Source of the DNA: Chlorobiota bacterium
GTDB lineage: Bacteria; Bacteroidota; Chlorobiia; Chlorobiales; Chlorobiaceae
Reading direction: 5' to 3'
Length of the DNA: 64,000 nt
Assembly: GCA_016866305.1 (NCBI GenBank)
Contig: VGMX01000011.1
Location: 1 to 64,000 of the forward strand
The notes below the pieces were generated by a model. The model did not search any database, was not told the DNA's origin, and saw nothing but the letters and a program-made list of their open reading frames with translations. Each line of letters begins with the position of its first letter. The first letter of the stretch is position 1. This document shows, one piece after another, positions 38,862 through 40,816 of the stretch. Both the position numbers and the translations under genes were made by a program.

Positions 38862-40550
38862 TTATGGCAGCCGGTTCAGGGCGCTGACAATCGCTTTGAT
38901 CGATGCGAGACTGATGTTGGAATCGATACCGGCGCCAAAGGATACCCTGCCGTCACGGCAGGCAACCCGGATATAGGCAATGGCAAGCGCTCCTGCGCTG
39001 TGCCCTATGGCATGTTCGGCATAATCCTCAATGCTGAAATCAAGCCCGCTGACCTCGGTGAAACCTTTGACGAAAGCATCGACCGGGCCGTTTCCCTTGG
39101 CATCGACAGCAAATTCCCGCTCTTTCATCTGCACTGTGCAGGTGATGATGGTTGCCTCCTCGTCATTGCGGTCGGGTTCTTCGTCGTCCCAGCTGATATG
39201 GCACTTTTTCAGTACGAAAGGCTCCCTGAGCCTTACGTACTCCTCATGGAACAGATTGTGAATGCGTTCCGGGGAAAGCTCTTCTCCGGTCCTGTCGGCA
39301 ACGGCCTGTACCGCTTCAGCAAAATCGGGCTGCATCCATTTGGGAATCTGGATACCGTAATCCTGCTCCAGTACGTAGGCAACGCCACCCTTGCCGGACT
39401 GGCTGTTGATGCGAACAATGGCTTCGTAGTTGCAGCCGACATCCTGCGGATCGATGGGCAGATAAGGAACATCCCATATGCCGTCCACCGCTCCATGATG
39501 CGCTTTCATGCCTTTGCTGATGGCATCCTGATGCGAACCGGAAAACGCGGTGTAGACCAGATCGCCTGCATAGGGATGACGGGCATGGACGTCCATTCTG
39601 GTGCACCTGTGGTAAACCTCGCGGATTTTCGGAAGGTCTGAAAAATCAAGCTCGGGATCGACCCCCTGGGTGAAAAGGTTCAGCGCCATGGTAACGATAT
39701 CCATGTTTCCGCAGCGTTCGCCGTTGCCGAAAAGGGCTCCTTCGACACGATCAGCTCCGGCCATGACGGCAAACTCGGCCGTCGCCACGGCAGTACCCCG
39801 GTCGTTATGCGCATGGACGCTGATCAGCACGGCATCACGGTTCCTGATGTTCCGGCAGAACCATTCAATCCGGTCGGCATAGATGTTCGGCCTCGACATC
39901 TCGACCGTCGAAGGCAGATTGAGAATGATCCTGTCGCCGGAGGATGCTCCCCAGGCATCCATGACGGCATGGCAGACATCGAGAGCATAGTCAAGCTCCG
40001 TGCCGGTAAAACTTTCAGGACTGTACTCGAAACGGATTCCGGGATTGCCACACTCCTCTTTCAGCCTTCGGACAAGTTTTGTGCCTTCTGCGGCAATGGA
40101 CCTGATCTCATTCTTGTTCTTGCGAAAAACAACATCCCGCTGCTGGCGTGATGTTGAATTGTACAGGTGCACGATAACACGGCCGGCACCGCGCACGGCA
40201 TCGAAGGTTTTCCTGATCAGGTGCTCCCTCGCCTGGGTCAGCACCTGAATGGTGACATCCTCCGGGATGAGATGCTGTTCGATGAGCCTGCGCACAAAAG
40301 CGAACTCCGTGGCCGACGCCGAGGGAAAACCTACCTCGATTTCCTTGAACCCTATGGAGACCAGGAGCTGGAACATGGAAACCTTCTCATCGACACTCAT
40401 CGGCACCGGCAATGCCTGATTGCCGTCCCTCAGATCGACACTGCACCATATGGGAGCCTTGGTGATGGTTTTGTCAGGCCATGTCCGGCCTTGAATATCC
40501 ACTGGGGGGTATGCGATGTACTTCCGGTAGTTCATCCCTTTCTTTTTCAT
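38862..40550 (-). CDS. leuA: 2-isopropylmalate synthase (LeuA type 2)
   Basis: The 562-residue enzyme carries the HMGL-like catalytic domain: WCSVDLRDGNQAL, the metal-binding HAHNDRGTAVATAE and GNGERCGNMD. The C-terminal LeuA dimer/allosteric domain follows. The length and the opening YIAYPPVDIQGRTWPDKTIT mark the long type 2 form. It condenses 2-ketoisovalerate with acetyl-CoA, the committed step of leucine synthesis. A leader peptide and attenuator lie upstream (40591-40741). ATG at 40550; AGAGGA precedes it by about 10 bp. Confidence 0.95.
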   Translation of the reverse strand: MKKKGMNYRKYIAYPPVDIQGRTWPDKTITKAPIWCSVDLRDGNQALPVPMSVDEKVSMFQLLVSIGFKEIEVGFPSASATEFAFVRRLIEQHLIPEDVTIQVLTQAREHLIRKTFDAVRGAGRVIVHLYNSTSRQQRDVVFRKNKNEIRSIAAEGTKLVRRLKEECGNPGIRFEYSPESFTGTELDYALDVCHAVMDAWGASSGDRIILNLPSTVEMSRPNIYADRIEWFCRNIRNRDAVLISVHAHNDRGTAVATAEFAVMAGADRVEGALFGNGERCGNMDIVTMALNLFTQGVDPELDFSDLPKIREVYHRCTRMDVHARHPYAGDLVYTAFSGSHQDAISKGMKAHHGAVDGIWDVPYLPIDPQDVGCNYEAIVRINSQSGKGGVAYVLEQDYGIQIPKWMQPDFAEAVQAVADRTGEELSPERIHNLFHEEYVRLREPFVLKKCHISWDDEEPDRNDEEATIITCTVQMKEREFAVDAKGNGPVDAFVKGFTEVSGLDFSIEDYAEHAIGHSAGALAIAYIRVACRDGRVSFGAGIDSNISLASIKAIVSALNRLP

Positions 40551-40590: not shown

Positions 40591-40624
40591 AAAAAAGCCG
40601 CCAGCCCTGAAGGGCGGCGGCTTT
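40591..40624 (-). terminator. Attenuator terminator in the leuA leader
   Basis: On the minus strand, arms AAAGCCGCC-GCCC and GGGC-T-GGCGGCTTT enclose TTCA and are followed by a T-run. It lies between the leader peptide stop (40655) and the leuA ATG (40550), so it would stop transcription before leuA unless an alternative structure forms. Confidence 0.85.
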
Positions 40625-40654
40625 ACAAATGGTTCTTTTCCTCCGGAAAACGAA

Positions 40655-40741
40655 CTAAAACGCACCTCCTCCAGGAGCCTCCGTGCTCAGGAGTAGTAGG
40701 CTTAGGCCCTCAGGAAGTCTGTTCAGGCTTTTCTGGTGCAT
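40655..40741 (-). CDS. leuL: leu leader peptide (28 residues, leucine run)
   Basis: A short frame, ATG at 40741 to TAG at 40655, encodes 28 residues, 8 of them leucine. The run LSLLLL is encoded CTA AGC CTA CTA CTC CTG, three of the codons being CTA. It lies 31 bp upstream of a strong terminator and then leuA. Alternating CTCC and GGAG blocks (about 40668-40697) allow competing hairpins, as expected for ribosome-mediated attenuation. Ribosome stalling at leucine codons when leucyl-tRNA is scarce would favour read-through into leuA. Too short for routine gene finding; no strong Shine-Dalgarno is seen. Confidence 0.82.
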   Translation of the reverse strand: MHQKSLNRLPEGLSLLLLSTEAPGGGAF

Positions 40742-40788
40742 GGTCGTCCGGCAAAAGACTGCTTTTTGAAAAACGTTTCTTACCTGCA

Positions 40789-40816
40789 AATATAAAAAAC
40801 AATTGCGGCATAGCAA
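40789..40816 (-). promoter_or_regulatory. Probable promoter of the leu leader transcript
   Basis: On the minus strand TTGCTA (-35) and TATATT (-10) are separated by 16 bp. The -10 ends about 47 bp before the leader ATG. Confidence 0.5.

Follow-up and report, generated by a model that had tools for sequence, protein, structure and literature searches.

Does the short leucine-rich frame that stands, with a hairpin, just ahead of leuA in a Chlorobiota bacterium form a switch for leucine synthesis, or do the parts lie side by side by accident? We analyzed a 64,000-nucleotide stretch of this genome (GenBank assembly GCA_016866305.1, contig VGMX01000011.1, positions 1 to 64,000), called the window here, together with leuA loci from related and distant genomes. 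We conclude with high confidence that the element is a genuine, well-conserved ribosome-mediated transcription attenuator tuning leuA to charged leucyl-tRNA, and that leuA is very probably switched on only when leucine is scarce. An earlier note, made from the letters of the window, had proposed a leucine attenuator here; the relatives' sequences, which keep a promoter-like site, a terminator, and potential competing structures, support that reading.

Parts of the element

All parts named in the earlier note (the promoter-like site, a 28-codon frame with a leucine run, and a GC hairpin with a T-run shortly before leuA) are present in place on the minus strand of the window, as listed below.

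40789-40816, minus strand: promoter-like site TTGCTA-16-TATATT (TTGCTA at 40816-40811, TATATT at 40794-40789, spacer of 16 nt), upstream of the leader; a TTGCAN-16-TATNTT-like site stands at a similar distance before most relatives' leaders
40655-40741, minus strand: leader peptide frame MHQKSLNRLPEGLSLLLLSTEAPGGGAF*, 28 codons (ATG at 40741, stop codon TAG at 40657-40655), of a design found in 64/67 Chlorobiaceae loci
40713-40718, minus strand: segment 1, protector strand ACTTCC in the leader, which can pair with GGAGGT of the G-box
40688-40705, minus strand: control codons CTA AGC CTA CTA CTC CTG (Leu run); codons 15 to 17 align across 28 leaders
40657-40672, minus strand: segment 2, the G-box GGAGGAGGTGCGTTTT, 5' strand of the antiterminator, ending in the leader stop codon; its pairing is conserved
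40632-40655, minus strand: small hairpin GTTC...GAAC inside the antiterminator, recognized from sequence and fold and retained in most relatives
40610-40624, minus strand: segment 3, AAAGCCGCCGCCCTT, common to the antiterminator (with segment 2) and the terminator (as its 5' arm)
40591-40624, minus strand: intrinsic terminator (segments 3 and 4), with a stem-loop at 40624-40594 and a T-run at 40596-40591
38862-40550, minus strand: leuA, 2-isopropylmalate synthase of the TIGR00970/NF002991 (yeast-type) family, the only such synthase in the genome

The terminator stem has a predicted energy of about -23 kcal/mol, and its T-run (T6) lies 40 nt from the leuA start at 40550; a generic terminator scan did not list this terminator (40624-40591). 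The leader frame has no clear Shine-Dalgarno sequence in the window. Seven of its 28 codons are Leu, and CTA, the rarest Leu codon, is enriched in the Leu run: it makes up 3/7 of the leader's Leu codons versus 1.6% of those in the long frames of the window. The earlier note had judged a leucine-rich mini-gene with a terminator before a leucine gene hard to put down to chance, and counts bear this out. Three short ATG frames in the 64-kb window have at least five Leu in six codons, only the leuA leader is followed by a terminator, and the combination occurred in none of 10 Markov-simulated windows.

The leuA product catalyzes the first committed step on the way to leucine. Only two other members of its superfamily were found in the genome, one a NifV-type homocitrate synthase and the other a CimA-type citramalate synthase; the synthase under the element's control is thus the only one committed to leucine. 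Judged from the leuA search, a second leuA (leuA_bact type) is absent from this genome and present in many other Chlorobium genomes.

Conservation of the leader

A protein search of genome contigs yielded 80 leuA loci, including 67 from Chlorobiaceae with usable upstream sequence. A leader with a Leu run precedes leuA in 64 of these 67 (L036 and L057 among those with leaders), and it has been lost at three (L029, L035, and L040). Codon-level comparison used 28 leaders of equal length, namely, 27 from Chlorobiaceae and, by the analyst's choice, one from FCPU426 (L072). Leu stands at codons 15, 16, and 17 in 27/28, 25/28, and 27/28 of them, respectively, with mixed codons; at codon 17 alone, CTC, CTG, CTT, CTA, and TTG are all used. 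Within the Leu run, pairwise differences are most frequent at the third codon position (0.463, versus 0.25 at the first and 0.23 at the second). Of the codon differences, a share of 0.364 is synonymous in frame, versus 0.137 and 0.104 in the other two frames (L072 excluded). Because Leu is retained through changing codons, with a synonymous excess in the reading frame, the leader is under coding constraint on leucine. The earlier note had offered an alignment of relatives as the way to undo its own reading; in that alignment, the frame and the leucines are kept while the nucleotides change.

Coding constraint bears directly on the plainest alternative, that the hairpin merely terminates the upstream gene and that the leucine-rich frame arose by chance. 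There is indeed such a gene, a META-like lipoprotein gene on the same strand upstream of the leader (41367-40870). However, the promoter-like site separates that gene from the leader, and the upstream gene varies in most relatives while leader and terminator persist: the lipoprotein gene is upstream in only 21 of the 67 loci with enough upstream sequence for this comparison, a set that includes non-Chlorobi loci. With the frame constrained at the codon level and the upstream genes changing, this alternative is largely refuted, and we consider it extremely improbable.

Four leaders (L018, L019, L021, and L062) shift frame after the run and stop earlier, and the G-box is still present in each; the G-box is thus preserved as RNA and not as peptide.

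Two of the loci that lack a leader differ in what is left. At L029 (positions 2824-2968), a natural case of leader loss, leader and promoter have been replaced, and a tRNA-Asn gene ends some 35 nt short of the leuA terminator; tRNA-Asn also lies ahead of the intact leaders of L033 and L034. In the symbiont Chlorobium chlorochromatii (L040, positions 2850-2936), the leader is absent and only a terminator remnant remains before leuA.

RNA structures and proposed mechanism

Structures were assessed on an alignment of 58 leaders (A1). For the antiterminator, the G-box GGGGAGGTGCGTTTT has a possible partner in AAAGCCGCC..CCTC, the terminator's 5' arm; 89.0% of antiterminator cells are paired, compared with 51 to 65% when the partner is slid by 1 to 3 columns. 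The terminator stem is 96.7% paired. A protector helix joins ACGAAC in the early leader with GTTCGT just past the stop codon and is 82% paired; two-sided changes support it, with 12 cells observed versus 3.9 in shuffles, and none of 500 shuffles does as well. ACCTTC (codons 8 to 10) in the alignment also matches the G-box. In the window, the protector is weak in its ACGAAC/GTTCGT part, but ACTTCC can pair with the G-box; the ACGAAC block of most relatives lies further upstream in the leader than ACTTCC. The alternating CTCC/GGAG blocks described in the earlier note are present, and the description needs sharpening, since the key alternation is that of the G-box (40672-40657) with either the early leader or the terminator 5' arm.

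Two-sided changes are few in the antiterminator and terminator pairs, as one would expect of a segment 3 that takes part in both helices. Folded as single sequences, the antiterminators have a mean energy of -23.8, versus -20.8 for dinucleotide shuffles of the segment between Leu run and terminator, and a mean fraction of 0.29 of the shuffles reaches the native value. Because shuffles do nearly as well, the evidence for the antiterminator is its conserved pairing and not its energy; folding energy was dropped as support.

From the observed parts, the coding character of the frame, the conserved competing pairings, and the linkage to leuA, we infer a transcription start site, translation of the leader, ribosome stalling, and a response to leucine. 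The start of transcription would lie some 40 nt ahead of the leader frame. With ample leucine, a ribosome would pass the Leu codons and reach the stop codon (40657-40655), covering the G-box; segment 3 would then pair with segment 4, and transcription would terminate before leuA. If leucyl-tRNA runs short, the ribosome would instead stall on the Leu run (40705-40688) and cover segment 1, leaving the G-box free to take segment 3, and the resulting antiterminator would allow read-through into leuA. In the absence of translation, segment 1 would hold the G-box and the terminator would form by default.

A ribosome placement model (12-nt downstream footprint, 66 loci) was used to follow these states. 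With the ribosome at the stop codon, the terminator is predicted to stay intact in 66/66 loci. With the ribosome on the Leu run, upstream sequence is predicted to capture the terminator 5' arm ahead of synthesis of the 3' arm, again in 66/66 loci, and mean occupancy of the 5' arm is 79% in this state, against 27% in the comparison. Folds of the untranslated RNA retain the terminator in 65/66 loci. As modeled, ribosome at stop, ribosome on Leu run, and untranslated RNA correspond to the three states known from classical attenuators.

Comparison with known systems

Attenuators of the leuL type, known from enterobacterial leuABCD (RF00512), combine a leader peptide bearing a Leu run with a protector, an antiterminator, and a terminator. 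The element described here is alike in all four and in standing before a leucine synthesis gene, but it has no sequence match to that family, and its protector strand is in the early leader, while the stop codon of the leader marks the end of its antiterminator strand. RF00512 (Leu_leader) has no match in the window, even at E values up to 10, and no Rfam family covers the element.

A structured leader ahead of a terminator would also suit an RNA of the riboswitch or T-box type that binds a ligand or tRNA, the frame being incidental, and two leuA relatives from Clostridia (L079 and L080) have T-box-like leaders. The element itself matches no Rfam family, T-box RF00230 has no match in the window, and Leu is kept as codons with synonymous variation; we therefore hold this explanation to be highly unlikely. 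In the two Clostridia, a T-box-looking GGGTGGTACCACG, judged by eye, occupies the place where a leader peptide would stand.

Actinobacterial leuA belongs to the same yeast-type family as the gene in the window. Upstream of it, Seliverstov et al. (2005) describe the LEU element, which has a pseudoknot and no terminator, and whose base stem pairs the Leu codons with the leuA Shine-Dalgarno sequence (PMC1262725). Both elements have a Leu-run leader ahead of leuA, and mutations in the Leu codons of the actinobacterial leader misfit classical attenuation (PMC1262725), so the leader peptide here could be conceived as acting mainly on leuA translation or by some other route, as suggested there. The actinobacterial element, as described, is set apart by its lack of a terminator, whereas in Chlorobiaceae a strong terminator with a T-run is conserved 40 nt before leuA, along with an antiterminator whose strand lies at the leader stop codon. 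This alternative is accordingly very unlikely, and transcription attenuation remains the preferred reading. The leader peptide described for the ilv-leu attenuator of Staphylococcus aureus (PMC5794164) is likewise a leucine leader that controls branched-chain synthesis outside Proteobacteria; it belongs to another phylum, operon, and RNA.

A literature search for leuA attenuation in Chlorobi or for transcription start sites in Chlorobaculum tepidum found nothing useful among the papers covered. The earlier note held such attenuation to be little described in Chlorobi, which is uncertain: a 2004 survey by Vitreschak et al. reportedly includes candidate attenuators of branched-chain synthesis from Bacteroidetes/Chlorobi. 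This phylum may thus already have been covered by a computational prediction, possibly at the same locus of a Chlorobium genome. The logic of that prediction is probably the same as ours, and the survey is not known to us to include an alignment across the family, a covariance model, or members outside the phylum.

Distribution and a second leader class

A covariance model (R1) was built of G-box, antiterminator, and terminator. In this genome, R1 finds one copy (98.8 bits); further copies were considered and rejected, as the remaining matches have E values above 0.3. Strong matches (E below 1e-6) occur in 79 of 86 Chlorobiaceae genomes, and about a dozen whose positions were compared with those of leuA all lie just before that gene. 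The rest of the phylum gives only two marginal matches (E values of 0.007 to 0.009), and within the phylum this type of leuA was found only in Chlorobiaceae (2 of 139 genera).

Leaders of this design also precede leuA in other phyla, namely, in Omnitrophota (L070, L071, L075, and L148), FCPU426 (L072), and Elusimicrobia (L067); of these, L067, L072, and L148 were not among the sequences in R1. The L067 leader, MKQKLTNLNLLLLNLLLQLKTAADGVF*, lies about 580 nt before leuA. The helix between leader start and the sequence after the stop codon is made in these out-of-phylum loci of letters that mostly differ from those in Chlorobi. These sequences suggest that leuA and its attenuator may have moved together between phyla. 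Loci of leuA in SAR324 and Spirochaetaceae have Leu-run leaders and terminators, with no match to R1. At three Omnitrophota loci (L070, L071, and L139), the leader ATG is only about a dozen bases past a -10-like box, and these leaders may be translated from nearly leaderless RNA.

In Omnitrophota and Elusimicrobiota, R1 also matches leaders that have no Leu run and precede other genes. Eight Omnitrophota loci share a recurring leader pattern, MH..C..LFP.WRK, with length differences in multiples of three.

L141 to L147 and L149, about 1440-1630 in each, minus strand in L146: Omnitrophota class-2 leaders, MH..C..LFP.WRK...R.GVF*

These eight leaders have no Rfam match and precede EamA-like transporters or a protein of 80 to 120 amino acids (names assigned by reading the sequence). 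In Elusimicrobiota, L134 and L136 have scaffold matches before a methyltransferase gene, followed in L134 by a HisG-like frame (names again by reading), and their leaders are MNRRPININAKHHMSIRLAVWCAVHGRGAF* and MSNTLTNSIKRALVLVSLVLWDKAGRGAF*. The helix joining leader start and post-stop sequence is present in class-2 leaders as well. Their likeness to the leuA element may be partly forced, because an antiterminator strand must resemble the 3' arm of the terminator. We tentatively raise the possibility, which we think somewhat doubtful, of a portable scaffold (pairing of leader start with post-stop sequence, a G-box at the stop codon, and a GCCRCC terminator) that Chlorobiaceae, Omnitrophota, Elusimicrobiota, and FCPU426 share, that has travelled between phyla together with leuA, and that carries varied sensor peptides: a Leu run before leuA and the conserved MH..C..LFP.WRK type before EamA-type transporters and small proteins.

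Significance

To our knowledge, little is known of amino acid regulation in green sulfur bacteria. Family-wide sequence evidence extends to them a mechanism familiar from textbooks, for which Proteobacteria and Actinobacteria offer the best documentation, and it defines an RNA family that is missing from Rfam and reaches several uncultured phyla. For this organism, it provides a testable switch for the only 2-isopropylmalate synthase, and Chlorobium chlorochromatii and two other loci provide natural deletions for comparison.
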